From Paraburkholderia fungorum (lineage in GTDB: Bacteria; Pseudomonadota; Gammaproteobacteria; Burkholderiales; Burkholderiaceae), in NCBI RefSeq assembly GCF_900099835.1, contig NZ_FNKP01000002.1:2108001-2172000 (forward strand): a stretch of 64,000 nt of DNA. Reading direction: 5' to 3'. Below, in pieces: positions 10,118 through 38,483 of this stretch; the stretch's first letter is position 1, and every line of letters begins with the position of its first letter. The position numbers were made by a program, and so were the translations under genes. The notes beneath the pieces are model-generated. The model ran no database searches. It was not told the DNA's origin and saw nothing but the letters and a program-made list of their open reading frames with translations.

Positions 10118-10831
10118 TCAATCTCTTTTGACGAATGAACCAGCACCGTTCGGGCTTTCCGCCCATGCCTGCTCGATCGCGTGCAACGCGCTCAGCACGA
10201 TCGACCGGTTCAACGCCGCTGCCAGCGTGCCGTCCCGCTCGGCATACGCTTCGCACAGCCGCTGATGATCCGAGCAGGAGCGCTGCAAACGGCCTGGCAG
10301 CGTCGTGCTGAGGTGGCGCAGACGGTTGGTCCGCATCCGCATCGAATCGAGCACTTCTTTGAAAATGCCGTTGCGGCACACGCGCAATTCTTCGTCGCGG
10401 AACGCGACATTGGCCCAGAAATAGCCGTCGACGTCGCCCGTCGCGGCCACGTCGGCAAGACATTGGTGCGCGCGCCATAGCGAGGCGATGTCGTCGTCGG
10501 TCGCGTGTTCGACGATGGCAAGCGACACCTGCGCGTAAAGGATCGCGCGCAATTGATAAATTTCGCGCACGTCTTTCAGATTGACCGCCGACACGCGCGG
10601 CCGACGACGCGGCGACCAGTCCACCAGCCCTTCGCGGCTCAGCACGAACAGCGCCTCGCGCGCGGGCGTGCGGCTCACGCCGAAGCGCTTGGCGAGATCG
10701 ACGGAGTTCAGATCGTCGCCGGCCGCGAGCCTTCCTTCGATAATCCCGCGCGCCACCCAGTCGACGATCTCCGCCACGGGCGACGCCTCGCCGTCGTCCG
10801 CCAGGGTGCTTTTGTCGACATCTTCGTCCAT
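10118..10831 (-). CDS. GntR-family transcriptional regulator (FCD-type)
   Basis: 237 residues with an N-terminal winged helix-turn-helix (about 18-85, including DLAKRFGVSRTPAREALFVL) and a C-terminal all-helical ligand-binding domain of FadR/FCD type (about 90-220). A Shine-Dalgarno AAGGA precedes the ATG. Such regulators usually repress the adjacent catabolic or transport genes and release DNA when bound to an acid metabolite. It is divergent from the MFS-PrpD-esterase run starting at 11076; two palindromes sharing GTGT/ACAC half-sites in the intergenic region (10936-10943 and 10998-11009) are candidate operators. Confidence 0.88.
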   Translation of the reverse strand: MDEDVDKSTLADDGEASPVAEIVDWVARGIIEGRLAAGDDLNSVDLAKRFGVSRTPAREALFVLSREGLVDWSPRRRPRVSAVNLKDVREIYQLRAILYAQVSLAIVEHATDDDIASLWRAHQCLADVAATGDVDGYFWANVAFRDEELRVCRNGIFKEVLDSMRMRTNRLRHLSTTLPGRLQRSCSDHQRLCEAYAERDGTLAAALNRSIVLSALHAIEQAWAESPNGAGSFVKRD

Positions 10832-10935
10832 CGCGGGTCCTTGTCTGGGGCGCGCCGGAGACCGGCGCAGCAGCGGATTCTAGCAAACGGCGGCCAATGT
10901 TCTAGCGCGCGCCACGCTGCACCGTCTTCGACAAA

Positions 10936-11009
10936 GTGTACACAGATGATTTGCCAGACTCTTGAATTTTGAGCAAATACCGCTTTATCATGTCAAAAGT
11001 GTCGACACT
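10936..11009. promoter_or_regulatory. candidate GntR operator pair
   Basis: Two perfect palindromes between the divergent GntR and MFS genes: GTGTACAC at 10936-10943 and AGTGTCGACACT at 10998-11009. They share GTGT...ACAC half-sites and lie about 60 bases apart. Binding by the neighbouring GntR protein is inferred from position only. Confidence 0.4.
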
Positions 11010-11075
11010 AAAACTTGAACCACGAACCAGCAAAACGACACGATCAAGCCCATTCCATACAGACCAGGAGACGTC

Positions 11076-12488
11076 ATGTACATGGAAAAGGAAATCGCCG
11101 GGACGGCTCACGCCGCGCCCAGCGTGTCGGCGCGGCTCGACCGCCTGCCGCCCACGCGCTACTTTCGCGGCCTCGTGGTGCGGATCGCCATCGGCGGCTG
11201 GTTCGAGTTCTACGAAATGTTCATGGCGGCCTATATCTCGCTCGGGCTGATCGGCAGCGGCCTGTACCGGGCAACCACGGCGGGGCTGTTCGACGTCAAC
11301 GGATTCGCCAGCTTTCTCGGCTCGTTCTTCGCGGGCATGTTCGTCGGCACGGTCGCGCTGGGCGGCTTCACGGACCGCTTCGGACGGCGTGCGGTGTTCA
11401 CCGGCGCGATGCTGATCTACTCGGTGGCGACCTTCGTCGCGGCTTTCCAGACTTCGCCTGAAGCGATGGACCTGTGGCGCTTCTTCGCCGGGCTCGGCAT
11501 CGGCGTGCAACTCATTACTGTCGACACTTACATCTCCGAACTAACGCCCTATCGCGCTCGCGGACGCTACTCCGCGTTCAGCATCCTGATCATCCTGACT
11601 TCAGTGCCGATCGTCGCGGTGCTGTCGTATCTGCTGGTGCCGCACGCGATTCTCGGACTCGACGGCTGGCGCTGGGTGATGATCATCGGCTCGGCGGGCG
11701 CGATCCTGATCTGGTTCATGCGGCGCGGTCTGCCGGAGTCGCCGCGCTGGCTCGAAAGCAAGGGCCGCGAGGCGGAAGCGCATGCAATCGTCGACGCGAT
11801 CGAGGCGCGCGTGATCGCGGAAACCGGCCAGGCGCTCGCCGCGCCGAGCCTCGACGCGCCCGGCTCGTGCCGCGGCGAAAAAGGCTCGTGGTCGGAAATC
11901 TGGCACGGCCGCTATCTGCGCCGCACCATCATGCTGTCGATGTTCAACTTCTTCCAGACCTTCGGCGTGTACGGGTTCGGCGCGTGGGTGCCGGTGCTGC
12001 TGTACTCGAAGGGCATCACGATTACGCACTCGCTGCTTTACACCATGGTGATCGCGTTCACGACGCCGCTCGGCGCACTCGGCGCGATGTGCTGCGCGGA
12101 GCGGCTTCAGCGTAAGTGGCAACTGGTCGGTTGCGCGATTGCGGTGGCGGTGGCGGGCGTGCTGTTCGGGATGGCGCGCGAACCGGTGCTGATCGTGCTG
12201 TTCGGCGGCATCGTCACGATCGCGAACAACTGGATGATCGGCATCTTCCACACGTATCAGGCCGAGCTGTATCCGACGCGCATCCGCGCGCGTGCGGTCG
12301 GCTTCGTATTTAGCTGGAGCCGCGTGAGTTCGATCTTCGTCGGCTTCTGGGTGGCGGCCCTGCTCAAACATTCGGGCGTGCCGGCCGTGTTCGTGCTGAT
12401 TTCGTCAGCCATGCTTGTGATCGTCGTGATGGTCGGCCTGTTCGGGCCACGGACCAACGGCGTTCGTCTTGAGGAGTTGTCCCGATGA
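11076..12488 (+). CDS. MFS metabolite:H+ symporter (sugar-porter-like)
   Basis: 470 residues and 12 hydrophobic segments. Motifs typical of the sugar/metabolite porter branch are present: GWFEFYEMFMAAY in helix 1, DRFGRRAVFTGAML in the 2-3 loop, ELTPYRARGRYSAF after helix 4 and RRGLPESPRWLESKGR before the central loop. These proteins import organic acids or aromatic acids with protons. It is the first gene of a run with three MmgE/PrpD genes and an esterase; its stop overlaps the next start as ATGA. The substrate is likely whatever that pathway degrades. Divergent GntR control is plausible. Confidence 0.87.
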   Translation: MYMEKEIAGTAHAAPSVSARLDRLPPTRYFRGLVVRIAIGGWFEFYEMFMAAYISLGLIGSGLYRATTAGLFDVNGFASFLGSFFAGMFVGTVALGGFTDRFGRRAVFTGAMLIYSVATFVAAFQTSPEAMDLWRFFAGLGIGVQLITVDTYISELTPYRARGRYSAFSILIILTSVPIVAVLSYLLVPHAILGLDGWRWVMIIGSAGAILIWFMRRGLPESPRWLESKGREAEAHAIVDAIEARVIAETGQALAAPSLDAPGSCRGEKGSWSEIWHGRYLRRTIMLSMFNFFQTFGVYGFGAWVPVLLYSKGITITHSLLYTMVIAFTTPLGALGAMCCAERLQRKWQLVGCAIAVAVAGVLFGMAREPVLIVLFGGIVTIANNWMIGIFHTYQAELYPTRIRARAVGFVFSWSRVSSIFVGFWVAALLKHSGVPAVFVLISSAMLVIVVMVGLFGPRTNGVRLEELSR

Positions 12489-13840
12489 GTTCCATTGCCG
12501 CCACGTTCGCGCAGGGTCTTTTCCGTCTGGCGCAGCGTCCATTGCCGGTCGATGTCGCGCAGGAAGCCCGGCGCTCGCTGATCAACGTGATCGGGACGTC
12601 GATCGGCGCGTCTACGCACCCCGGCGTCGAAGCGATTCTCGCCACCGCGCGCGAACTTGGCGTCGACGAAATCGCGCCCGTGCCGGGACGCGGCGAGCGC
12701 GTCGACAGCCACTTTTCCGCACTGGCGACCGGCTTCGCCGCCCATCTCGACGATTTCGACGATACCCATCTCGCCACGGTGATTCATCCGGCTGCTTCGG
12801 TGTTCGCGGTGCTGACCGCGCTGACGCCAGCAACCCAGCCGGACGGCGCGCGTGCGCTAACGGCGTTCGCGCTCGGCTGCGAGGCGCAGTTGCGGGCCGG
12901 CGTGTCGATCTCGCCGGAACACTACGATCGCGGCTGGCACATCACCGGCACATGCGGAGTGATCGGCTGCGCGGTGACGGCGGCGCTGCTGCTCGGACTC
13001 GATCAGCACGGCTTGACCGAAGCAGTCGCGATCGCCGCGTCGATGTTCGTCGGACAGCGCGAAGCATTCGGCACGATGACCAAGCCCTATCATCCCGGCA
13101 AGGCGGCCGCCAACGGCATCGCCGCCGCGCGTCTCGCGCAGCGCGGCGTGCACGCGGCCACGGACATTTTAGAAGCGCCCGGCGGCTATTCGCACTCGCT
13201 GTCCACGAAGGTCAACTTCGCGCTGATGAACGACGATTTCGGCGAGCGCTGGGAGTTGCTGTTCAACACGTACAAGCCGTATCCGTGCGGAATCGTCGCG
13301 CATCCGGCCATCGACGGCGGGCTTGCTCTGTCCACGCAAATCGACGACGTGGCGTCGATCGACGCCATCACGCTGCGCTGTCATCCGCTGGTGCCGGAGT
13401 TGATGGGCAACCCGCAGCCGAAGGACGGTCTGCAGGCACGCTTCAGCGCGATTCACGGCGTCGCCGCCGCGCTGTGCGACCGGCAGGTCGGCCTCGCGCA
13501 ATACGACGACGAACGCGTGCTGCGTGACGACGTCCGCGAGGTGCGCGCAAAAACGACGCTGTCGCCGGATGCGTCCGTGCAGCGCGACGAAGTGTTCATC
13601 GAAGCGCGGCTGAAGGACGGCTCGACGCTGAGCCACCACGTCGAACACGCGCGCGGCAGTTTAGCGAGGCCGCTCACGGTCGATGAACTGATGGACAAGG
13701 TGCGTCTGCTGATCGACCCGCGTCTGGGCAGCGGCACGACCGCGCGTCTCGCGGCCATCGTCGAAGGACTCGACACCGCGCCGGATCTCGATGCGCTATT
13801 CGCTTTGTGCACGCCGAACGAGGAACTGAATCATGCATAA
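12485..13840 (+). CDS. MmgE/PrpD family protein (paralogue 1, full length)
   Basis: 451 residues, the usual length of the MmgE/PrpD family, which includes 2-methylcitrate dehydratase, cis-aconitate decarboxylase and iminodisuccinate epimerase. Recognisable elements are the N-terminal helical domain with HLDDFDDTH (the family's conserved acidic/His active-site segment), GWHITGTCGVIGCAVTAALLLG, and TKPYHPGKAAANGIAAARLA, then the smaller C-terminal domain starting near residue 265. It is translationally coupled to the MFS gene upstream and overlaps the next gene by eight bases. A dehydratase, decarboxylase or epimerase acting on a polycarboxylate is likely; the substrate is not predictable. Confidence 0.87.
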   Translation: MSSIAATFAQGLFRLAQRPLPVDVAQEARRSLINVIGTSIGASTHPGVEAILATARELGVDEIAPVPGRGERVDSHFSALATGFAAHLDDFDDTHLATVIHPAASVFAVLTALTPATQPDGARALTAFALGCEAQLRAGVSISPEHYDRGWHITGTCGVIGCAVTAALLLGLDQHGLTEAVAIAASMFVGQREAFGTMTKPYHPGKAAANGIAAARLAQRGVHAATDILEAPGGYSHSLSTKVNFALMNDDFGERWELLFNTYKPYPCGIVAHPAIDGGLALSTQIDDVASIDAITLRCHPLVPELMGNPQPKDGLQARFSAIHGVAAALCDRQVGLAQYDDERVLRDDVREVRAKTTLSPDASVQRDEVFIEARLKDGSTLSHHVEHARGSLARPLTVDELMDKVRLLIDPRLGSGTTARLAAIVEGLDTAPDLDALFALCTPNEELNHA

Positions 13841-14570
13841 CCCCGCCGCTCATTCCGCCGTGTCGGATGCGTTGACCGGATTCGCCGCGATTGCGTTGAT
13901 GGATCTGCGCGTGCAGACCGTCGCCCGCCAGGCCGTTGCACAGGCGCGCGAGCGGATCGCCTCAGCCGGCGAGGCCGCGAAGCAGGTCGCCGCTCTACTG
14001 CAAGCGCCTGGCGGCGAGTCGCGCAACGACACGCGGATGCACGCGTGGGTACTCGGCGCGACGCTGGCGGCGCGGCCGGAATCGGCGTCGCCTTCGGCGC
14101 CCGTGCTGGCCGCCGTGATCGCGACGGGCGACCGGCTCGACGCATCCGCCGACGACATCGCGGCCGCCGCCGCTGTCGGGATCGAAGCCGCCGCGCGCAT
14201 TCTCGCCGCCGTCGATAGCGACGAGTTCCGTGCGCGCTGGAATGCCGCGTCGACGGTCGGCGTGCTCGGCGCAGTGCTGGCGATGGCGCGTCTGCACAAG
14301 CTCGACCGCACACGCACGCGCCACGCTCTCGGCATCGCCGCCACCCAGACCGCCGGACTCGCGCGCAACGCGGGCAGCACGATGGCCGCGATCGAAACCG
14401 GCAAGGCCGCCGCCGATGCCATCGAAGCCGCGTTGCTTGCGAAACATGGCTTCACGAGCGCGGCGGCATCGATCGACGGCCGCCGCGGATTCGCTGCGTT
14501 GATGGCTTACCGGTTCGACGCGGCGTCGATCACCGAGGGACTGGGTTCGCATTGGGTGTCGTTAAACTGA
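13833..14570 (+). CDS. MmgE/PrpD-like protein, half length (paralogue 2)
   Basis: 245 residues that align by eye only with the middle of the preceding full-length MmgE/PrpD protein: the FRARWNAASTVGVLGAVLAM segment matches its GWHITGTCGVIGCAV region, and the STMAAIETGKAAADAIEAALL segment matches its PYHPGKAAANGIAAARLA region. The acidic HLDDFDDTH segment and the C-terminal domain are absent. The frame is intact and it starts inside the stop of the previous gene, so it looks like a maintained partner subunit rather than fresh decay, though a degenerating duplicate is possible. Whether it binds the full-length protein is unknown. Confidence 0.72.
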   Translation: MHNPAAHSAVSDALTGFAAIALMDLRVQTVARQAVAQARERIASAGEAAKQVAALLQAPGGESRNDTRMHAWVLGATLAARPESASPSAPVLAAVIATGDRLDASADDIAAAAAVGIEAAARILAAVDSDEFRARWNAASTVGVLGAVLAMARLHKLDRTRTRHALGIAATQTAGLARNAGSTMAAIETGKAAADAIEAALLAKHGFTSAAASIDGRRGFAALMAYRFDAASITEGLGSHWVSLN

Positions 14571-28187: not shown

Positions 28188-28940
28188 ATGGACTCCTTAC
28201 TCGCCCTGATGGCCGACCCCGCTGCGTGGGCAGCGCTCGTCACGTTGATCGTGATGGAAATCGTGCTCGGTATCGACAACCTGATCTTCATCTCGATCCT
28301 CAGCAACAAGCTGCCCGAGGCGCAACGCGCGCGCACGCAGCGCATTGGCCTGATGCTCGCGCTAGTGATGCGGCTTGCGCTGCTCGGCACGGTCGCGTGG
28401 ATCGCGCAGCTAACCGCGCCTGCTTTCTCGCTGTTCGATCACGCGTTTTCGTGGCGCGATCTGATTCTGCTCGGCGGCGGTCTGTTTCTGGTGTGGAAGG
28501 CAACGAGCGAAATTCGCCACCACGTCACTCATTCGGACGAGGCTGCCGATAAAGCAGCCTCCACGGTTCAGTTGACGGTCGCGGCGGCCATCGGCCAGAT
28601 CATCGTGCTCGATATCGTGTTTTCGGTCGACAGCATCATCACGGCGGTCGGCATGACCGAGCACATGCCGATCATGTTCGTCGCCGTCATCGTCGCGGTG
28701 CTGGTGATGCTGTTCGCGGCGCTGCCGTTGTCGCGCTTTATCGATCGCAATCCGACCATCGTGATGCTGGCGCTCAGCTTCCTGCTGGTGATCGGCATGA
28801 CGCTGATCGCCGATGGTTTCGGCACTCACGTGCCAAAGGCCTACATCTACGCGGCCATGGCGTTCTCCGCTTTCGTCGAGTGCATGAACATGCTGGTGCG
28901 TCGCGCGAAATCGAAACGCGCGGCGAGTGGCGGCGAATGA
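28188..28940 (+). CDS. TerC-family integral membrane protein
   Basis: 250 residues with seven membrane helices and the TerC signature: [19 protein letters not shown] in the first repeat and [17 protein letters not shown] in the second, each with an intramembrane acidic residue, plus a final FAYxY-like [19 protein letters not shown] helix. Family members (Alx, MeeY/MeeF, TerC) are increasingly linked to manganese export and metal loading of secreted enzymes; tellurite resistance is a historical name. Monocistronic, divergent from the NhaR-like regulator across 120 bases. Confidence 0.9.
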
Positions 28941-29015
28941 ATGGCGCATGAGCGATTAGTGAATGACGCGCTCAGGCCGAGCGTTTGAAGTCTGGAATTT
29001 TCAAGGAGCGTGACG

Positions 29016-29315
29016 ATGAAGTGCCCCGTTTGTACAACGACCGATCTGCTGATGACCGAGCGCCGCTCGATCGAAATCGATTATTGCCCGGCCTGCCGGG
29101 GCGTGTGGCTCGATCGCGGCGAACTGGACAAGCTGATCGCGCAGGACGCGGGAAATGGGGATACGCCCGCCGCGTCACGCGCGGGCCGCGACGAGCACCA
29201 GAATCGTGGACACTCATACGAAGGCGACCGCCATCGCGGGTATGACGATCGCCGCGCGGATTATCGCGGGCACAAAAAGAAGCGCTCGATTTTCGACGTG
29301 TTCGACTTCGACTGA
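29016..29315 (+). CDS. TFIIB-type zinc-ribbon protein
   Basis: 99 residues from the ATG at 29016, seven bases after a perfect AAGGAG. The N-terminal 40 residues form a zinc ribbon of the zf-TFIIB type: CPVC, then CPACRGVWLDRGELDKL, giving four zinc-binding cysteines. The remainder is charged and His/Arg/Asp-rich, ending in KKKRSIFDVFDFD, which matches many small proteobacterial proteins of this family. Cytosolic; role unknown. Confidence 0.85.
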   Translation: MKCPVCTTTDLLMTERRSIEIDYCPACRGVWLDRGELDKLIAQDAGNGDTPAASRAGRDEHQNRGHSYEGDRHRGYDDRRADYRGHKKKRSIFDVFDFD

Positions 29316-29354: not shown

Positions 29355-29975
29355 CTAGCGGGCTTTGCTTCGGCCGCTTCGGCCGGTAGTTCCAGAACGA
29401 GGCGTTTCTTTGGCTGCAGGCGCGCCGCCGTTCATCTGCTCCATCCACGACAAAGTGTCGACGTACGACATGAACTGCTTCAGATACCCCGGCGACAACT
29501 CGCTCATCAACGAAAGCGCGCGATGCACGAGGCTGCTTGAATTGAGCGGCCCCGCGTTGCCGGACACCGGCGCGAGCGACTGGCGTATCTGTTTCTCGCT
29601 GCGTACCCGGGACCAGACACCTCGGAAGTAATCGAGTTCAGGCAGTTCGGGATAGGCGGTGGATCGGTGCGTGTTGCTCGCGAGTTGCCTGACCAGGCCC
29701 GCGAGCGATTCCGATTCGGCGGCGGCGCGGTCCGCCACCTTCGCATCGGGCGTTGCGCGCGCCACGTCAGCCGAATACGCGTGAATCAGCTTCGCCACGC
29801 GCTCGTCGAGAACCCGCCGTGCATCGCCTTCGTGGGCAGCCGCGCGCCGCTCCAACCCCACGATCAATTGAAAACGCACCGGGTTCAGACGATCCGCACC
29901 GCACTCGCGCCACGCGTCGAGTGTCGCTCGGGCGTGCCGCGCGACGTCGGCGAAATCGACGTTATTGCTATTCAC
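29355..29975 (-). CDS. DUF2894 family protein (last gene of the stator-like operon)
   Basis: 206 residues, soluble, mostly helical, with an ELPELDYFRGVWSRVRSEKQI segment and a basic Ser/Gly/Lys tail. No membrane helix or signal peptide, so it is cytosolic. I assign DUF2894 from recall of the burkholderial gene order DUF3348-DUF802-OmpA-DUF2894. Its start overlaps the end of the MotB-like gene by eight bases, so the two are made together, suggesting that it works with the envelope complex, perhaps binding the long cytoplasmic tail of the MotA-like subunit. No catalytic motif was seen. Confidence 0.75.
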   Translation of the reverse strand: MNSNNVDFADVARHARATLDAWRECGADRLNPVRFQLIVGLERRAAAHEGDARRVLDERVAKLIHAYSADVARATPDAKVADRAAAESESLAGLVRQLASNTHRSTAYPELPELDYFRGVWSRVRSEKQIRQSLAPVSGNAGPLNSSSLVHRALSLMSELSPGYLKQFMSYVDTLSWMEQMNGGAPAAKETPRSGTTGRSGRSKAR

Positions 29976-30615
29976 CGGACTTCACCGTTGCAGTCGATGG
30001 CCGAGGCACCGGCGCAATTTCCACACGACGGTTTTTCGCCCGCCCCGGTTCGTCAGTATTCGAACTCACCGGCTGCCCGGAGCCGAACGCCGCCGCGAAC
30101 AGCGACGACGCTGGCACGCCCGCGTCGATCAATTGACGCGTGACCGTCAACGCGCGCTGTGCCGAGAGCTCCCAGTTGTCCGCGAAGCGGCGATTGCCTT
30201 CGCGCAAACGCTGGTCGTCGGTAAAGCCGCTGACCATCAGAATCTGATCGCTGGCCCGCAAATACGCGGACAGCGGTCCAGCCAGGCTCTTCAGCAGATC
30301 GCGCCCTTCCGGCTGTAACTGCGCGGAATTCAGCGCGAACAGCACATTGCCGCTAATGCCGATGCGTCCATTGACCAGGGTCACGCGCCCCGCCGCCAGC
30401 GGTCCGGCCAGCGCCTGCTCCAGCGTCTTGCGGCGCTGCGTTTCCGCCTGACGCTGCTTGACCTCCTGATCGAGCTTGTTCGATAGCTCCAGTTGCACGC
30501 CGATCACGCCGACCAGAATCAGCACAAACGCGCCCAGCAGCACCGACATCAGGTCGCCGAAAACCGGCCAGATCGGCGCGCCCGGCTCCACGCCGCCGTC
30601 GATTTCCTCGCTCAT
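29968..30615 (-). CDS. MotB/OmpA-like stator subunit
   Basis: 215 residues. A short cytoplasmic N-terminus leads to one membrane helix (about 20-43). At its start lies PVFGDLMSVLLGAFVLIL; D21 occupies the place of the proton-binding Asp of MotB (D32 in E. coli) and ZorB. A coiled-coil linker (45-75) is followed by an OmpA-type peptidoglycan-binding domain (about 85-205) with NVLFALNSAQLQPEG, VSGFTDDQ and a GSGQPVSSN...RAKNRRVEI ending. It overlaps the MotA-like gene as ATGA. The pair should form a cell-wall-anchored ion-driven motor. Not flagellar: there is no flagellar gene in the window. Confidence 0.85.
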   Translation of the reverse strand: MSEEIDGGVEPGAPIWPVFGDLMSVLLGAFVLILVGVIGVQLELSNKLDQEVKQRQAETQRRKTLEQALAGPLAAGRVTLVNGRIGISGNVLFALNSAQLQPEGRDLLKSLAGPLSAYLRASDQILMVSGFTDDQRLREGNRRFADNWELSAQRALTVTRQLIDAGVPASSLFAAAFGSGQPVSSNTDEPGRAKNRRVEIAPVPRPSTATVKSGE

Positions 30616-33491
30616 ACCGCATCAACTCCGGCGGACGAGCGTTGGCGGGCGAGGTGCTGCAAATCTTCGACGATCTGCTTCTGCGACATCACGCTCAGGT
30701 CGACGACTTCACGCGCCTGTGCGACGTAATACGCGAGTTGTTCGTCGCTGCGCGCAAGCGATTTGTCCAGCGCGGTTTCGATGAGTTGCAAATGGGCGAC
30801 GAGTTTGTCGTTCGATTCGCCGAACATCTGCACGGAGGCACCGAACGCTTCGCCGAGGCTCGCGACTTCGACCGCGCTGCCCGTCACCTGCGCGGCGACC
30901 GCGCCGAGCTTGCCGGTTTCGAGTTCGACATGATCGGTGAAGCGCGTGCCCACGCGTTCCAAAAGATCCGCCGATGTCGCGACCAGCGCATCCACGGCCG
31001 TGCGTTGCTCGCCGGATGCGTGATTCACTGCATCGAGCAAGGTCTCAAGCGTTTCGAGAAGACGGCTGCGCTCCTGCAACATCGCGGTATCGCGGACCAT
31101 GCTGTCCGACAGTTTCTGACGCAGTTCGGCGACGACCTCGGCGGCGGCCTTCGGCGCTTCCGACGCCGCTTGCACCAATTGGCCGATTTCAGCGATGGTG
31201 TCGCTGGCGTGCGCCTGCGTTTGCGCTGAGATATCGCGTGCGGTTTGCGCCAGCGTCTCGCAGATTTCCTGCTGACGTTGCGCGGTTTGCGTGCCCGCTT
31301 GCGCCCACTCTTCGCTCAGCGTTGATGCCATCGAGCCGAGCTTGTCGGTCCATGCGGCCAGGCGCTCTTCATCGCGCGAGGCAATTTCAGCGTGCAGATT
31401 CGCTGCGGCCTTCGGTGCCTCAGCCGCTGCATCAACCAGGCGGTTGATTTCGGCAATCGTGTCGCTCGCATGCGCCTGCGTTTGCGCCGATATATCGCGC
31501 GCGGTTTGCGCCAGCGTTTCGCAGATTTCCTGCTGACGTTGCGCGGTTTGCGTACCTGCTTGCACCCACTCTTCGCTCAGCGTGGTGGCCATCGAACCGA
31601 GCTTGTCGGTCCATGCGGCCAGGCGCTCTTCATCGCGCGAGGCAATTTCAGCGTGCAGATTCGCTGCGGCCTTCGGTGCTTCAGCCGCCGCGTCAACAAG
31701 ACGGTTGATTTCGGCAATCGTGTCGCTCGCTTGCGCCTGCGTTTGTGCCGACATATCGCGCGCGGTCTGCGCCAGCGTTTCGCAGATTTCCTGCTGACGT
31801 TGCGCGGTTTGCGTGCCCGCTTGCGCCCACTCTTCGCTCAGCGTGGTGGCCATCGCGCCGAGCTTGTCGGTCCATGCAGCAAGGCGCTCTTCATCGCGCG
31901 ACGCAATTTCAGCGTGCAGATTCGCTGCAGCCTTCGGTGCTTCAGCCGCCGCATCAACAAGACGGTTGATTTCGGCAATCGTGTCGCTCGCGTGCGCCTG
32001 CGTTTGCGCCGACATATCACGCGCGGTTTGCGCCAGCGTTTCGCAGATTTCCTGCTGACGTTGCGCGGTTTGCGTACTCGCTTGCGCCCACTCTTCGCTC
32101 AGCGTTGTGGCCATCGAACCGAGCTTGTCGGTCCATGCGGCCAGGCGCTGTTCATCGCGCGACGCCAGTTCGGTCTGCAAGTCCACATGCGACTGACCGA
32201 CCCCACGCAGCAACGACGCCGAGTGTTGCTCGAAAGTCGCCGCTGCCGCTGCCAACGCCTGCTGGTTATCCAGAGCCAGCTTTTCGCCCGCGCGTTCCTG
32301 ACGCGATAGCGCGTCGTTCCACGCCTGCGACACATTGCCCGCCGTCGCATCGAGCCGCGCGGACACGCCGTCCAGCAACGCCGCCGAACGCAATTCGAAC
32401 GCTTCGGTGACACGCTCCATCGAGCCGCGCCAATGCCCGGCCAATTCCTCGCTCGAACGCTGATGCCCGGCCAATGCGTCGCTCCAGATCCCGGCGACTT
32501 TGGCCGCGGTCGCGTCGAAGCCGCTCGACAATCCGTCGAGTTGTCGCTGGACGGCTTGCGAGACCGCGCCGTGCAACGCCTCGGTCTCGCGCGCGAGACC
32601 CGCCATCGTGGCTTCCATGACCGGCTGCAACGCGGCGCTGGCAGCCCTCGCGCTATCGGCGACGCTGTCCTTCAGCGAGCGCTCGACCGAACCTGCCAGG
32701 CGCGTATAAACCGCCTCCGTCTTGCCGTGGAAGGCTTCCTGGCTCGCCAGTTGCCGCTCGTTCAGCGCGAGACTTTGCTGTTCGATGACGGTCATCATCG
32801 TTTGCAGACGATCGACCAGCGTCGGCATGACCTCGGCCTGGCGCTGCATCAGCTTGAAACTTTCCTCGCGCTGATGCGCCTGCGAATAGATGCGCAAGTT
32901 CGTCGCGATCTTCAGGTCGAGCGCCTGCGCGGCGTCGAGCCGCGCACGGCGGCACAGCGCCGACAGCAAACCCAGCATCGCCGATGTCGCAACGCCCGCA
33001 ATCGAGGTGCCGAATGCAAAACCCAAGCCCTTGACCGGCGCGGCCAGCGACGCGCGAATCGCCTGCAGATCGGTCGCGCTTTCGAGCGCGAGGCCGGTGC
33101 CGCGCAGCGTCGCGACCATCCCGAGCAGCGTGCCGAGCATCCCCAGCAACACCAGCAAGCCGACGAGGTACGGCGTCAGCGCCGGTCCGGGCAGCGCCAC
33201 GCGCTCGCCTTCGACCCGCAGTCGCACCGCGTTGCGCAGGCTCGGGTGCAAAGGTTCGAGCCACGCGGAAAGACTCGCGGGCGGCGCGGAGAGTCCGTCG
33301 ACGGCGCGCGTCAGCGTGGTCGTGGCCTGACCATAGCGGCGCAATTCGAGCGCACCCGCCAGATAGCAGACGACGATCAGCAGCGTGACGGACAGCGCCA
33401 GCGCGTTCGACCCGACATAGCTGGCGGCAATCCAGCACGCAGCGGCCAGGCCGGCCAGAAAAACAACGAAATCAATACGATATCTGGACAT
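30612..33491 (-). CDS. DUF802 protein: MotA/ExbB-like membrane domain with giant repeated helical tail
   Basis: 959 residues from the ATG at 33491. Four membrane helices lie at about 7-24, 29-49, 108-128 and 155-180. The last two, GLLVLLGMLGTLLGMVATLRG and GLGFAFGTSIAGVATSAMLGLLSA, match the MotA/TolQ/ExbB/ZorA core pattern. From residue 185 to the end the protein is a long Ala/Gln/Glu-rich helical tail without other domains, including four tandem 87-residue repeats (about 441-789; these repeats are what Pfam names DUF802). It is followed by the overlapping MotB-like gene. By analogy with ZorA the tail would project into the cytoplasm and transmit stator rotation. Function unknown. Confidence 0.85.
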   Translation of the reverse strand: MSRYRIDFVVFLAGLAAACWIAASYVGSNALALSVTLLIVVCYLAGALELRRYGQATTTLTRAVDGLSAPPASLSAWLEPLHPSLRNAVRLRVEGERVALPGPALTPYLVGLLVLLGMLGTLLGMVATLRGTGLALESATDLQAIRASLAAPVKGLGFAFGTSIAGVATSAMLGLLSALCRRARLDAAQALDLKIATNLRIYSQAHQREESFKLMQRQAEVMPTLVDRLQTMMTVIEQQSLALNERQLASQEAFHGKTEAVYTRLAGSVERSLKDSVADSARAASAALQPVMEATMAGLARETEALHGAVSQAVQRQLDGLSSGFDATAAKVAGIWSDALAGHQRSSEELAGHWRGSMERVTEAFELRSAALLDGVSARLDATAGNVSQAWNDALSRQERAGEKLALDNQQALAAAAATFEQHSASLLRGVGQSHVDLQTELASRDEQRLAAWTDKLGSMATTLSEEWAQASTQTAQRQQEICETLAQTARDMSAQTQAHASDTIAEINRLVDAAAEAPKAAANLHAEIASRDEERLAAWTDKLGAMATTLSEEWAQAGTQTAQRQQEICETLAQTARDMSAQTQAQASDTIAEINRLVDAAAEAPKAAANLHAEIASRDEERLAAWTDKLGSMATTLSEEWVQAGTQTAQRQQEICETLAQTARDISAQTQAHASDTIAEINRLVDAAAEAPKAAANLHAEIASRDEERLAAWTDKLGSMASTLSEEWAQAGTQTAQRQQEICETLAQTARDISAQTQAHASDTIAEIGQLVQAASEAPKAAAEVVAELRQKLSDSMVRDTAMLQERSRLLETLETLLDAVNHASGEQRTAVDALVATSADLLERVGTRFTDHVELETGKLGAVAAQVTGSAVEVASLGEAFGASVQMFGESNDKLVAHLQLIETALDKSLARSDEQLAYYVAQAREVVDLSVMSQKQIVEDLQHLARQRSSAGVDAV
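31142..32185 (-). repeat. four tandem 261-base repeats inside the DUF802 gene
   Basis: The same landmark (GCAATTTCAG or its variant) recurs at 31381, 31642, 31903 and 32164, exactly 261 bases apart, and the intervening sequence is nearly identical. Each unit encodes 87 residues beginning ASRDE and containing AAWTDKLG, QRQQEICETLAQ and AEAPKAAA. The low divergence implies recent duplication or ongoing homogenisation, and copy number is probably variable among strains. Confidence 0.92.
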
Positions 33492-33501
33492 AGTGTTCCA
33501 G

Positions 33502-34299
33502 TTAGCGGGTGCGAAGAGCTGCGAGCAACCCTTCGACCGGTTGTAAACGAACTTCCAGTTCGGCCAGCAGGACGCTCTGCATATCCTTGCGGAAAACGTC
33601 CAGCCACGCGTCGGGTGCGGTTGGCGCAGGCGGCGCACTCCGGGCGGCGGGCGCAGCGTCTTTGGCGGCATCGGCCTGACCAGCGTGTTCGGGATCGTCG
33701 ACGATCGCGGCCGCCTTCTGACTCGCGTCGCGCAAACGCTCGAAATGGCCCGCGAGCAGACCGGGCACCGTCGCCAGCAGATTCCGCTCGCGCTCGCCCA
33801 GCGCGCGCTCCATCACGGCGTCCACCACCGCCAGCCGGGCCATGGCGGGCGTTCTGGTGGCGAGCATCCCACGCAGACGGCCGCGTAGATTGCCAACGGC
33901 CGTTTCCATCGACTGCTGCTGCGCAAGATAGCGCTGACGGAACACCGCGTAGTCGGCCGGCGCATCGGTGGAAACGACGTGAGCCGACGCCGGCCCCGCC
34001 GCGCGCCGCTTCGACGCGACCAGCACGCTGTCGTTGGCGATGGCCTTGCCCAGCAACGACCGCACGCGAAGACATTCGTCCTCTTCGACGCGGCCGAACG
34101 CCCGCGCGTTGGCCGGGACCGCAGGCGGCTTACCGCTCAGCGCCGACGACAAAGCAATCGCGTCGGTCCAGCCGAGCCACTGGCTCAGCCGGTCCGACAG
34201 CGACTGCCGGGATTCGGGAACATCGACATCCGCCAGACGGGCCAATAAGCGAATGAGGGCCGGGCCACTGAGCGCTGTGCGCTGGGAAGCTTGCAACAT
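33502..34299 (-). CDS. DUF3348 family protein (first gene of the stator-like operon)
   Basis: 265 residues, soluble and helical, with no signal peptide. The N-terminus GPALIRLLARLADVDVPES is followed by an ECLRVRSLLGKAIAND segment, a central region rich in charged helices and an Ala/Pro-rich linker, and a C-terminal amphipathic stretch DMQSVLLAELEVRLQPVEGLLAAL. I assign DUF3348 from recall of burkholderial annotation. It ends ten bases before the DUF802 gene and is the operon's first gene. A cytosolic adaptor or effector of the membrane complex is plausible; nothing in the sequence shows an enzymatic site. Confidence 0.75.
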   Translation of the reverse strand: MLQASQRTALSGPALIRLLARLADVDVPESRQSLSDRLSQWLGWTDAIALSSALSGKPPAVPANARAFGRVEEDECLRVRSLLGKAIANDSVLVASKRRAAGPASAHVVSTDAPADYAVFRQRYLAQQQSMETAVGNLRGRLRGMLATRTPAMARLAVVDAVMERALGERERNLLATVPGLLAGHFERLRDASQKAAAIVDDPEHAGQADAAKDAAPAARSAPPAPTAPDAWLDVFRKDMQSVLLAELEVRLQPVEGLLAALRTR

Positions 34300-34556
34300 A
34301 GCACCGGAGGCAAAAAAGTCAGCAGTTTACACGCTGGCGAGGTGGGTGCCGCTGTGGTTTGATCTGGCGGGTATTTTGACGGTGCTTCTGGACCCGATCG
34401 AACCGCAATCCGAGGCTGGTTCGACGGCTCGCGACAGCACGTGCAAACCCGAATCCCGCGCGTTTTTGCAGCAGGTACGATGCACCTGCAGCAAGCACTT
34501 AACAGCACCATTCCAGGCGAGGCAACGTGACACCCGACGTGACCCAGACAGGCAGC

Positions 34557-35789
34557 ATGAAATTCGATACCGTCGTGCTCGGCGCGGGCATAGTCGGCGT
34601 CTGCGTGGCGCTGCATCTGCAGAAACGCGGCCGCCAGGTTGCGCTGATCGACCGCAAATTGCCCGGCAACGAAACGTCGTTCGGCAATGCAGGGCTGATC
34701 CAGCGCGAAGGCGTCTATCCGTATGCGTTTCCGCGCGGACTCGGCACGCTGCTGCGCTACGCGCGCAACCAGTCACCAGACGTTCGCTACCACGCCGACG
34801 CGATCCTCAAGACCATGCCGTTTCTGTGGCAGTACTGGCGCAATTCGCATCCAGCAAAACACGCGGCAATCGCGCGCTCTTATTCCACGCTGATCGAACA
34901 TTGCGTGAGCGAGCACCGCGCGCTCGCCGCCGATGCCGGTGCGAGCGCGTTGCTGCGTCCGATCGGCTGGATCAAGGTGTTTCGCACCGACGCGGTTCGG
35001 GATGCCGAGACGCGGCTCGTCGAACGATGGCACGACGAATACGGCGTCGAGTTCGACGCCCTCGATCCCGCGCGCCTGCAACAGATGGAACCCGCTCTCG
35101 ACACGAGTTTGCGAGGCGGCTTGTGCTATACGGCATCCGATTCGGTCAGCGATCCGAATGCGCTCGTCACCGCGTACGCGAAATATTTCGAGGCGCTGGG
35201 CGGCCGCTTCTTTATCGGCGGCGCCGACACATTGCGCGAGGGCTGGCAGGTCGATACGGAAGCGGGAACGATCTCGGCGGAATCGGCAGTCGTCGCGTTG
35301 GGGCCGTGGTCGGACCGGCTGAGTGCGCAACTCGGCTACCGCCTCCCTCTCGCCGTGAAGCGCGGCTACCACATGCACTACGCGCCGCGCGACGGTGCGC
35401 GCCTGAATCACCCGGTGCTGGATGTCGAAAACGGTTATCTGCTGGCGCCGATGGCGCGCGGCATCCGGCTTACCACTGGCGCGGAAATCGCTCATCGCGA
35501 CGCGGTCAGGACGCCCGTGCAACTCGCGGCGGTCGAGCCGGTCGCGCGCACGCTGTTTCCGCTAGGCGAACGTCTCGACGACGAACCGTGGATGGGCCGC
35601 CGCCCCTGCACGCCGGACATGATGCCGGTTATCGGGCCGGCGAAAAATCATCGGGGCTTGTGGTTCGCCTTTGGTCATGCGCATCACGGATTGACGCTGG
35701 GGCCGATCACGGGCCGCCTGCTCGCGGAAATGATGACGGGTGAAGAGACGGTGGTGGACCCGTGGCCGTTTCGGGTGGAGCGGTTCTAG
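34557..35789 (+). CDS. DadA-like FAD-dependent amino-acid dehydrogenase
   Basis: 410 residues from the ATG at 34557; a GTG at 34527 after a GAGG site is an alternative that adds ten residues. The N-terminus KFDTVVLGAGIVGVCVALHLQKRG is the FAD-binding Rossmann motif, followed by NETSFGNAGLIQ as in D-amino-acid dehydrogenase DadA. The C-terminal half has WMGRRPCTPDMMPVIGP and GLWFAFGHAHHGLTLGPITGR, the conserved FAD-contacting end of the DAO family. It probably oxidises a D-amino acid or a related secondary amine and passes electrons to the respiratory chain. Single gene, divergent from the DUF3348 operon. Confidence 0.87.
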   Translation: MKFDTVVLGAGIVGVCVALHLQKRGRQVALIDRKLPGNETSFGNAGLIQREGVYPYAFPRGLGTLLRYARNQSPDVRYHADAILKTMPFLWQYWRNSHPAKHAAIARSYSTLIEHCVSEHRALAADAGASALLRPIGWIKVFRTDAVRDAETRLVERWHDEYGVEFDALDPARLQQMEPALDTSLRGGLCYTASDSVSDPNALVTAYAKYFEALGGRFFIGGADTLREGWQVDTEAGTISAESAVVALGPWSDRLSAQLGYRLPLAVKRGYHMHYAPRDGARLNHPVLDVENGYLLAPMARGIRLTTGAEIAHRDAVRTPVQLAAVEPVARTLFPLGERLDDEPWMGRRPCTPDMMPVIGPAKNHRGLWFAFGHAHHGLTLGPITGRLLAEMMTGEETVVDPWPFRVERF

Positions 35790-36227: not shown

Positions 36228-38483
36228 ATGAAAATGAAGTTGCGGTCCGACGATCCGAAGCTCGGCAAAATCAGCACGACCCTTTGCAGCATGCTCGCTG
36301 CCGGGCCGGCTCTCGCTCAAAGTACCGCGGCCACCGCGCCGCCCGACAGCGAAGGCCAGCTCGTGCCGATCGCCGTGCAAGGCCAGTCGGACGACGCCTT
36401 CAAGACCGACCACTCGTCGTCGATCAAATTCACCGCGCCGCTGCTGGATACGCCGAAATCGGTGACGGTCATCCCGCAGGAACTGATCCAGAGCACCGGC
36501 GCCTCGACGCTGACCGAAGCGCTGCGCACCGTGCCGGGCATCACGTTCGGCGCGGGCGAAGGCGGCAATCCGCTCGGCGACCGGCCGTTCATTCGCGGCT
36601 ACGACGCGCAGGGCAGCACCTTCGTCGACGGCATGCGCGACGTCGGCGCGACGACTCGCGAAGTGTTCAACATCCAGAGCGTTGAAGTGACCAAGGGTGC
36701 CGATGGCGCGTTCGGCGGCCGGGGCGGCGCGGGCGGCAGCATCAACCTGATCACCAAGGCTCCGCATCTGGGCAATTCCGCCGACGGCAGCGTGGGCCTC
36801 GGCACCGACCGCTACCGCCGCTTCACCGCCGACGGCAACTGGCAAGTGGCCGATCACGCGGCGTTCCGCCTGAACGTGATGAGCCACAACAACGACGTGG
36901 CCGGCCGCGACGCCGTCAACAACGAGCGCTGGGGCATTGCGCCGTCGTTCACATACGGCCTCGGCACGCCCACCCGCGTAACGACGAGCTACTACCATCT
37001 GCAAACGGACGACCTGCCCGACAGCGGCATTCCGTACTTCTACACGACGACCAACAAGCCGGCCAACGTCAGCACCATCTACCCGGCCGACGTGAACCGT
37101 CACAACTTCTACGGCCTGATCGACCGCGATTTCCGCAAGACCACGTCCGACGTCGGCACGGTGCGGATCGAGCACGACATCAACAGCAATCTGTCGATCC
37201 GCAACACCACGCGCTACACGAAGTCGACCCAGGACTACATCTGGACCCAGCCCGACGACAGTCAGGGCAACGTCGTGAACGGCATGGTGTGGCGCCGCGC
37301 AAATACGCGTGCCAGCGACGTCTACAGCCTCGCCAACCAGACCGAACTGTACGGCGACTTCAACACCGGCTTCCTGAAGCACAGCTTCACGACCGGCATC
37401 GAAGTGTCGCGCGAAACCAGTGTGAACGACTCGTACACGGTCGCGGCGGCAAGCGGCGCGATCTGCAAGACCAACGGCATCGGCGTCGCGTCGGGCTATA
37501 ACTGCACGAGTCTGTACTCGCCGAATCCGAACGACCCGTGGGCCGGTTCGGTCAAGCAGACGAACGATCCCAGCGAGCAACGCACCGTCACCAAGTCGCT
37601 CTATGCGTTCGACACGATCGAGCTGACGAAGCGCTGGCAAGCCAACGTCGGCCTGCGCGTCGACGATTACTCGACCGATTTCCGCAACACCGTGGCCAAC
37701 GGCGCGGGCCGCGTTTCGCGCGACGACACGCTGTTCAACTACCAGCTCGGCCTCGTGTTCAAGCCGGCATCGAACGGCAGCATCTATACGTCGATCTCGA
37801 CCTCGTCGACGCCGGCCGGCGCGTTGCTCGGCCAGGGTAGCGAAACGCAGTCGCTGACGCCGGGCCGTGGCGGCATCGGCGCGAACGCCGCCGATCTCGC
37901 ACCGGAGAAGAACCGCAGCATCGAAGTGGGCACCAAGTGGAACGTGCTGGACAACAAGCTCTCGCTGACGGGCGCGCTGTTCCAGATCGACACGACCAAC
38001 GCGCGCGTCACGTTGCCGGACAACAGCTACGCGATGGTCGGCAGCAAGCGCGTGCAAGGTTTCGAATTCGGCGTGGCGGGTCAGTTGACGAACAAGTGGC
38101 AGGTGTTCGGCGGCTACACGTACCTGAAGAGCCAGTTGCGCGACAACGGCAAAACGACGACCGACAACGGCCACCAGTTCCCGAATACGCCGAAGAACAG
38201 CATCAGCCTGTGGACCACGTATGAAGTTCTGCCGAAGTTCACGATTGGCGGCGGCGCGTTCTACATGTCGCAGGTTTATGGCGACACGGCGAATCTGCGC
38301 GCGGTGCCGGCTTACTGGCGCTTCGACGGCGTAGCGACGTATCGCGTGAACAAGCATGTCGATCTGCAACTGAACGTGCAGAACATGTTCAACCGCACGT
38401 ACTACGACCAGGCTTACGCGTCGCACTACGCGTCGATCGCACCGGGACGCTCCGCGTTCCTGACGCTGAACGCCCACTACTAA
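36228..38483 (+). CDS. TonB-dependent siderophore receptor (Fiu/PiuA-like)
   Basis: 751 residues with an N-terminal export signal (about 1-31), then a TonB-box/plug region in which DTPKSVTVIPQELIQ and TLTEALRTVPGITFGAGEGG are typical of catecholate receptors, GDRPFIRGYDAQGSTFVDGMRD completes the plug, and a 22-stranded barrel ends with PGRSAFLTLNAHY (aromatic C-terminus). It imports ferric catecholate siderophores at the outer membrane with TonB energy. It heads an operon with a Sel1 protein (10 bases on) and a PKHD hydroxylase, matching the Pseudomonas piuA-piuC neighbourhood, and has a Fur box upstream. Confidence 0.93.
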   Translation: MKMKLRSDDPKLGKISTTLCSMLAAGPALAQSTAATAPPDSEGQLVPIAVQGQSDDAFKTDHSSSIKFTAPLLDTPKSVTVIPQELIQSTGASTLTEALRTVPGITFGAGEGGNPLGDRPFIRGYDAQGSTFVDGMRDVGATTREVFNIQSVEVTKGADGAFGGRGGAGGSINLITKAPHLGNSADGSVGLGTDRYRRFTADGNWQVADHAAFRLNVMSHNNDVAGRDAVNNERWGIAPSFTYGLGTPTRVTTSYYHLQTDDLPDSGIPYFYTTTNKPANVSTIYPADVNRHNFYGLIDRDFRKTTSDVGTVRIEHDINSNLSIRNTTRYTKSTQDYIWTQPDDSQGNVVNGMVWRRANTRASDVYSLANQTELYGDFNTGFLKHSFTTGIEVSRETSVNDSYTVAAASGAICKTNGIGVASGYNCTSLYSPNPNDPWAGSVKQTNDPSEQRTVTKSLYAFDTIELTKRWQANVGLRVDDYSTDFRNTVANGAGRVSRDDTLFNYQLGLVFKPASNGSIYTSISTSSTPAGALLGQGSETQSLTPGRGGIGANAADLAPEKNRSIEVGTKWNVLDNKLSLTGALFQIDTTNARVTLPDNSYAMVGSKRVQGFEFGVAGQLTNKWQVFGGYTYLKSQLRDNGKTTTDNGHQFPNTPKNSISLWTTYEVLPKFTIGGGAFYMSQVYGDTANLRAVPAYWRFDGVATYRVNKHVDLQLNVQNMFNRTYYDQAYASHYASIAPGRSAFLTLNAHY

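Follow-up and report, generated by a model that had tools for sequence, protein, structure and literature searches.

Zorya systems of types I and II contain a 5:2 ZorAB complex that passes ions; both depend on the Asp of ZorB, on the binding of peptidoglycan, and on the ZorA tail (Mariano et al. 2025; PMC11890865). The ZorA tail of these two types has been seen as a rod; that of the type II ZorA of S. kujiense comprises residues 100–378 only (PMC11890865). Type III goes back to Payne et al. (2021; PMC8565338), whose definition combines zorA-zorB with genes for a DUF3348 and a DUF2894 protein, and has also been described by Mariano et al. (2025). The expression "zorBC genes" used there in 2021 seems to be an error for zorAB, because the discussion of that paper names ZorA, ZorB, ZorF, and ZorG. 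Introduced into E. coli, the type III set of Stenotrophomonas nitritireducens makes at least one phage plate less well, and cultures are protected at a multiplicity of infection below 0.1; the DUF3348 and DUF2894 proteins were proposed to be ZorAB regulators (PMC8565338). A paper on MotAB evolution places Zorya as a more distant relative (PMC12505986).

Here we analyze a four-gene operon of Paraburkholderia fungorum, which runs on the minus strand from position 34299 to 29355 of a stretch of 64,000 nucleotides (the window; contig NZ_FNKP01000002.1, positions 2,108,001 to 2,172,000) and encodes, in this order, a DUF3348 protein, a ZorA-like DUF802 protein, a ZorB-like protein, and a DUF2894 protein. 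Judging by its protein families, the locus is very probably a chromosomal Zorya type III system, i.e., a known kind of anti-phage machine built like a flagellar motor. This identification corrects the preliminary description of the same DNA; what appears to be added to the published picture is the stepwise, phase-keeping variation of the ZorA tail. The features of the operon are as follows.

33502..34299, minus strand: DUF3348 protein (PADLOC ZorG3; "ZorF" in Payne et al. 2021), 265 residues; PF11828, E 8.6e-94; PDLC00656, E 8.8e-110
30612..33491, minus strand: ZorA3, MotA/ExbB/ZorA-type motor subunit with a long cytoplasmic tail, 959 residues; PADLOC ZorA3, 1655 bits
32373..32531 (contig 2140373-2140531), minus strand: DUF802 repeat 1 of ZorA3; PF05650
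32208..32366 (contig 2140208-2140366), minus strand: DUF802 repeat 2 of ZorA3; PF05650
31137..32180, minus strand: four 87-residue units, the length-variable part of the tail, ZorA residues 438-785; Tandem Repeats Finder (TRF) 31144-32162 and a hidden Markov model (HMM) of the unit
30615..31136, minus strand: tail tip of ZorA3, its conserved last 174 residues; conservation over 99 sequences
29968..30615, minus strand: ZorB3, one membrane helix with Asp21 and a predicted OmpA-like peptidoglycan-binding domain, 215 residues; PADLOC ZorB3, E 1.5e-116
29355..29975, minus strand: DUF2894 protein (PADLOC ZorF3; "ZorG" in Payne et al. 2021), 206 residues; PF11445, E 3.5e-52; PDLC00652, E 2.3e-76

PADLOC type III models were the best families for all four proteins, with E-values of 8.8e-110 for ZorG3 (DUF3348), 0 for ZorA3, 1.5e-116 for ZorB3, and 2.3e-76 for ZorF3 (DUF2894). 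It should be noted that two labels are swapped between sources: PADLOC calls the DUF3348 protein ZorG3 and the DUF2894 protein ZorF3, whereas in Payne et al. (2021) and Mariano et al. (2025) DUF3348 is ZorF and DUF2894 is ZorG. Whole-protein Pfam scores were 314 bits for DUF3348, 102 bits for DUF802 (two stretches), 64 bits for OmpA (PF00691), and 178 bits for DUF2894. The gene content does not differ from that of published type III, in which the same four families share one cluster. The preliminary description had held that the operon is not a known Zorya; this claim fails, as all four proteins match type III models and the gene set is that of Payne et al. (2021). Type III had been missed because only zorC, zorD, and zorE were looked for, and these three genes are indeed not found among the scanned neighbors.

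Comparison with the other types delimits the locus further. Type I (ZorABCD; PDB entry 8VVN) has in common with it the ZorA motor core, a ZorB with the Asp and an OmpA domain, and a long cytoplasmic tail, but ZorC and ZorD are lacking among the 10 window neighbors scanned, and the window ZorA3 scores 29.4 bits against the NCBIfam type I cut-off of 190 bits. Type II (ZorABE) likewise has the ZorAB core in common, but no ZorE nickase gene is found among the 10 neighbors and ZorA3 scores 23.4 bits against a cut-off of 100 for antiphage_ZorA_2. MotAB, ExbBD, and TolQR also combine a four-helix motor subunit with a one-helix subunit carrying the Asp, but Pfam MotA_ExbB matches nine other places in the same genome and not ZorA3, and ZorB3 falls under the cut-off of every MotB model among the best 25 of its 41 matches.

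The operon is compact. The DUF3348 and ZorA genes are 10 nt apart, ZorA and ZorB overlap by 4 nt, and ZorB and DUF2894 by 8 nt. The coordinates and the Pfam matches of all four proteins bear out four tightly spaced genes with a 10-base gap and overlaps, as first described. The ZorA start was placed at the ATG at 33491 by N-terminal homology, which gives 959 residues; the start at 33671 in the open reading frame (ORF) list was judged too early. Relatives within the genus were drawn from 80 of its 133 DUF3348-positive genomes, mostly with matches well inside contigs. Counting the window, junction lengths were identical in 74 of 99 operons for DUF3348-ZorA, in 84 of 99 for ZorA-ZorB, and in 50 of 99 for ZorB-DUF2894, and gene order and strand were kept in 99 of 101 loci. 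The two exceptions, a broken copy (L094) and a locus at a contig end (L131), are left out of all ZorA counts. L094 (positions 10750-14000; genome G129, a 5.2-Mb member of the genus) is a decayed copy among mostly intact relatives: its DUF3348 frame overruns the usual end, ZorA has lost its membrane part, and ZorB is split in two pieces.

A MotAB/ZorAB-type motor architecture is supported by sequence comparison, because a profile built on 26 motor regions from ZorA3, searched against PDB sequences, matched type I ZorA (8VVN_C, E 2.7e-6, residues 109–182), hhalign with eight type I ZorA sequences gave a probability of 96.7% (E 3.6e-10), and Asp21 of ZorB3 is invariant. The PDB search yielded no other credible match, two further rows having E-values of 0.59 and 0.96. 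Four hydrophobic segments of ZorA3, judged by eye, lie at residues ~7–25, 29–48, 105–129, and 152–178, in agreement with the four membrane helices initially described, and the tail, given then as nearly 780 residues, measures ~775–780. The MotA/ExbB-type core proposed at the same time stands for the ZorA part of the comparison and does not stand for Pfam MotA_ExbB, which fails to detect the window ZorA3; the four-helix similarity is demonstrated for the ZorA branch only.

ZorB3 matches MotB and OmpA domains, scores above the cut-off of NCBIfam PRK09040, and matches a short stretch of the 8VVN ZorB (E 0.0011). Asp21 lies within the motif W-x4-D-L-M. This residue, as well as N195, R196, and R197, is invariant in all 38 aligned ZorB sequences (from 42 chosen representatives, four being left unaligned), with a mean column identity of 64%. 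The MotB-like protein with Asp21 in its single helix and an OmpA domain, as described earlier, is thereby upheld; the OmpA-like domain is predicted to bind peptidoglycan.

A feature of the locus that is absent from the preliminary description is a run of four near-identical 87-residue tandem repeats in the ZorA3 tail (TRF period 261 bp, 3.9 copies, 91% matches). A unit HMM places them at residues 438–524, 525–611, 612–698, and 699–785, and the units are 85–94% identical to each other in DNA. Stepwise tail variation of this kind is unmentioned in the consulted sections of PMC8565338. ZorA3 spans 675–1193 residues over 99 loci and 693–1229 residues over 73 named loci (80 taken, seven without a readable full ZorA; the two sets partly overlap and are not independent). 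Tandem repeats occur in 78 of the 99 and in 52 of the 73 tails. For 56 of the 80 loci from the genus, the length of ZorA agrees with 698+87k to within 3 residues, with 12, 20, 17, 6, and 1 loci for k from 0 to 4; these ladder proteins have a fixed first ~437 and last ~174 residues, with one to five copies of the 87-residue unit between. The tip is well conserved, the mean majority-residue share in its 20-residue blocks being 0.74–0.92 over 99 sequences. Loci off the ladder carry units of 29, 51, 76, 80, and 113 residues, among others, some further upstream; repeats of 113, 94, and some of 29, 51, and 73 residues start from about residue 260, and duplication is therefore not always central.

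Among ZorA/ZorB pairs of at least 97% identity, tail length differs in 8 of 17, seven of them by a multiple of 87 (±2 residues). In nine pairs of close strains, ZorA length is equal in all. Five of these pairs come from single species, i.e., three from P. caribensis, one from P. largidicola, and one from C. metallidurans (whose two records are 100% identical over this stretch), and four are Caballeronia strains of 96–99.9% DNA identity. These nine pairs rule out fast strain-level variation of the tail.

In type I-like ZorA, tandem repeats occur in 0 of 14 tails (11 above the cut-off, 3 below). Fifteen such sequences had been read, 12 above and three below; one (L281) was dropped, its perfect adjacent-lag "repeats" resembling a run of unknown bases. 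Six longer, unclassified ZorA-like frames of ~1,250–1,630 residues (L284, L285, L286, L287, L294, and L297) come from other members of the phylum and do not reach the type I cut-off. Five of these six carry repeats of at least 0.6 identity, and type III is therefore not alone in having repeat tails; some of their lags (115 and 118 residues) lie away from whole turns at a pitch of 3.63.

The second line of evidence on the tail is helix phase. The 13 unit lengths found (11, 29, 51, 55, 69, 73, 76, 80, 87, 94, 98, 113, and 131 residues) all lie within 0.14 turn of whole helical turns at a pitch of 3.634 residues per turn, with a mean cosine of 0.90 at 3.635, and none of 2000 random sets with free pitch was as good. 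When the pitch was fixed at 3.62, the hydrophobic periodicity of the unit region in 15 single-unit proteins, none of 5000 random sets matched. Two units found afterwards in named Cupriavidus loci, of 62 and 149 residues, correspond to 17.06 and 41.00 turns. The variable part has a hydrophobic periodicity of 3.63, compared with 3.68 for the fixed N-terminal part of the tail and 3.59 for the last 174 residues; the overall value is 3.66.

Unit lengths were taken from autocorrelation lags, with sums merged by hand: 22, 33, 44, 88, 99, and 176 into 11; 58 and 116 into 29; 102 and 153 into 51; 138 into 69; 146 into 73; 152 into 76; 160 into 80; 174 into 87; and 163 as 76+87. The lag of 233 in two Achromobacter loci was taken as 131+102, and in one locus (L136) the lag of 153 occurs but not that of 51. 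Lags had to reach 0.6 identity, which excluded, among others, one of 190 in L129 (52.3 turns, off phase); the lag of 55, the spacing of the DUF802 repeats, was kept despite an identity of only 0.50–0.55. Without units 11 and 55 the result was still 0 of 2000 random sets, and with seven units that cannot obviously be composed from others it was 0 of 5000. The 131-residue unit of the Achromobacter loci has a counterpart in the ZorA of locus L126.

Tail length thus differs between species mainly by steps that preserve helix phase. Since the unit lengths keep this phase, the ZorA3 tail is probably a continuous helical rod, consistent with the rod seen in types I and II. The phase result bears on rod continuity; it does not bear on rotation or on selection on length. 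No report of phase-preserving tail steps was met in the literature searched, a search that did not extend to the structural work of Hu et al. on Zorya.

From the observed gene content, protein families, invariant Asp, conserved tip, and tail varying mainly by phase-preserving units, the following mechanism may be proposed, in which we infer 5:2 assembly, rotation, and docking by analogy with types I and II. The motor would lie in the inner membrane, be driven by protons, and consist of five ZorA3 and two ZorB3 subunits, with Asp21 of ZorB3 as the proton carrier. When a phage breaches the envelope, the OmpA domain would grip peptidoglycan and the ZorA3 ring would turn. The five tails would form one continuous, nearly straight helical rod, ~115 nm long in the 959-residue form if the helix is unbroken, that carries motion to the conserved tip, where the DUF3348 and DUF2894 proteins most likely dock and perform or trigger the blocking step.

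The broader reading that we tentatively put forward, as a possibility and not as the probable outcome, is that Burkholderiaceae keep type III Zorya as a near-core machine with a modular-rod tail, resized in whole-turn steps (one 87-residue unit being about 13 nm of rod) since a torque or conformational wave must reach the fixed tip unbroken. If so, tail length would be a tuned mechanical parameter, i.e., reach or compliance, and a standing cellular role besides phage defense would be possible. The natural series of tails, with one to five 87-residue units and other sizes, keeps the helix in phase, and this phase is independent, sequence-only evidence for the ZorA tail working as one continuous rod; the series also lets one ask if there is a fixed distance from the membrane at which Zorya does its sensing or acting.

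Several observations weigh against the main explanation, a chromosomal Zorya type III defense system with a rod-like tail. ZorA lengths of 24 of the 80 genus loci are off the 698+87k ladder. The genus carries DUF3348 in 133 of its 144 genomes, and such near-universal presence is unusual for defense; so is the mostly vertical descent suggested by comparison with RpoB (see below). The context is not that of a defense island, only 3 of the 148 proteins encoded beside 34 loci having PADLOC matches at 1e-10 (genes called with a simple custom ORF caller). Finally, the operon encodes no nuclease or helicase; type III must therefore block otherwise than by ZorCD or ZorE, or leak ions.

Of the alternatives, the one that survives best is that recombination between similar DNA repeats is all that lies behind the quantized tail lengths, helical phase persisting because such repeats originate in register, with no selection on length. 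We regard this as quite conceivable, though short of probable. The 85–94% DNA identity of the window units would favor such exchange, and unit number carries little phylogenetic signal, as at least 26 changes are needed on a tree of 56 loci compared with a mean of 29.5 and a minimum of 22 for shuffled labels. Recombination by itself fits less well with the single phase shared by 13 unit lengths, several of which are not multiples of each other, or with the equal lengths in all nine close strain pairs.

Somewhat less likely, in our opinion, is that phage defense is not the main task of the operon, which would encode a core machine of the envelope or nucleoid of Burkholderiaceae; the protection of E. 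coli would then be a by-product of overexpressing a proton motor or of an envelope change. Distribution speaks for it. Besides the 133 of 144 genus genomes, in which there is one copy of DUF3348 per genome save for split readings of the gene and two additional weak matches, DUF3348 is found in 207 of 299 genomes of Burkholderiaceae. All 11 negative genomes of the genus also lack ZorB3 (0 of 11), and seven of them are small, 4.1–5.9 Mb compared with 8.6 Mb for the window genome. ZorB3 was absent from all 50,697 phage records searched (E limit 1e-20), which is unusual for defense, and was found on 27 plasmids among 72,556 records (E limit 1e-60), their sizes ranging from 366 kb to 3.5 Mb. The 64% mean column identity of ZorB3 and the flanking Pfam families, which in the first 25 of 163 are mostly regulators, transporters, and metabolic enzymes, agree with this explanation.

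Descent can be weighed on the same question. The identity of Zor proteins follows that of RpoB, with a Mantel r of 0.70 over 29 genomes (of 30; G022 had no RpoB match) and 0 of 2000 permutations as high; r was 0.75 within 15 genomes of the family and 0.70 within 10 of the genus. A core machine is, on the other side, hard to reconcile with the patchy presence of DUF3348 in the order sample (25 of 399 genomes, six of these from its own family) and with at least one likely transfer between families. Thus, the Zor proteins of G281 (locus L126, family f4) are nested within family f1 in the Zor tree, with at most 79% Zor identity at 82% RpoB identity, and the G281 system was likely acquired across families. 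No neighborhood dominates, genus and outside loci taken together, the commonest upstream neighbor family occurring in 29 and the commonest downstream one in 25 of 100 loci. Also against it are the published protection of E. coli by a type III set (PMC8565338) and the statement of Mariano et al. (2025), in the sections consulted, that the uneven distribution of the three Zorya subtypes is typical of anti-phage systems. In a 2026 survey (PMC13064858), the type III Zorya of Ralstonia solanacearum serves to illustrate defense systems that are highly conserved, and because of that survey the core-like retention of type III is partly known already. Near-universal presence in one genus raises the question of whether type III is defense, housekeeping, or both.

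Rather unlikely, in comparison, is the explanation that the motor is itself the effector: phage damage would open an ion leak through ZorAB and stop growth (abortive infection), the DUF3348 and DUF2894 proteins only gating it. The absence of a catalytic family or a significant fold match in these two proteins and the protection of cultures at a multiplicity of infection below 0.1 (PMC8565338) point in this direction. A leak alone, however, does not explain why helical phase is kept over a tail of 73–156 nm (at 1.5 Å per residue).

As for the two proteins themselves, AlphaFold2 models predict helices only, with a mean predicted local distance difference test score (pLDDT) of 86.6 for the DUF3348 protein and a moderate model for the DUF2894 protein (pLDDT 76.3, predicted template modeling score 0.44). 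Foldseek gave no clear fold match for the DUF2894 model; nor did it for the DUF3348 model, including a second look in which an Mx/dynamin-stalk-like helical fold was considered as a candidate. No credible sequence relatives were found in the PDB and no significant enzyme family in profile scans (the alignments held 38 of 40 DUF3348 representatives, L094 and L136 being dropped, and 43 of 44 DUF2894 representatives, without L124). ZorA length does not correlate with DUF2894 protein length (rho −0.11, p 0.29); a weak correlation with DUF3348 length (rho 0.27, p 0.006) is uncorrected for kinship and was not used.

The last alternative, a new ZorAB-like machine outside known Zorya, suggested by the lack of zorC, zorD, and zorE among the scanned neighbors, can be practically dismissed, being refuted by the type III HMM matches and by a four-gene set identical to the published one.

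The type I ZorA model matched in 40 of 398 genomes of the phylum, 12 of them above the cut-off, and in 0 of 144 genomes of the genus, with no sub-threshold match there either.

The neighbors of the operon in the window, from profile scans, are the following, none with a PADLOC defense match.

28188-28940: TerC
29010-29315: TFIIB-type zinc-ribbon protein
34527-35789: FAD oxidoreductase
36228-38483: TonB-dependent receptor

The survey of gene neighbors for defense islands, which had been suggested beforehand, gave the 3 defense-like proteins of 148 mentioned above; together with 0 of 10 PADLOC matches among the window neighbors, it rules out a defense-island context.

Two minor observations concern the tree and the annotation of relatives. 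Family f49 falls in two separate places of the Zor tree. At L303:2548-5004, the annotated start of the DUF802 gene in AP028202.1 (2698) lies ~130 bases inside an 812-residue gene, and the same record annotates an ORF on the opposite strand across the true start.

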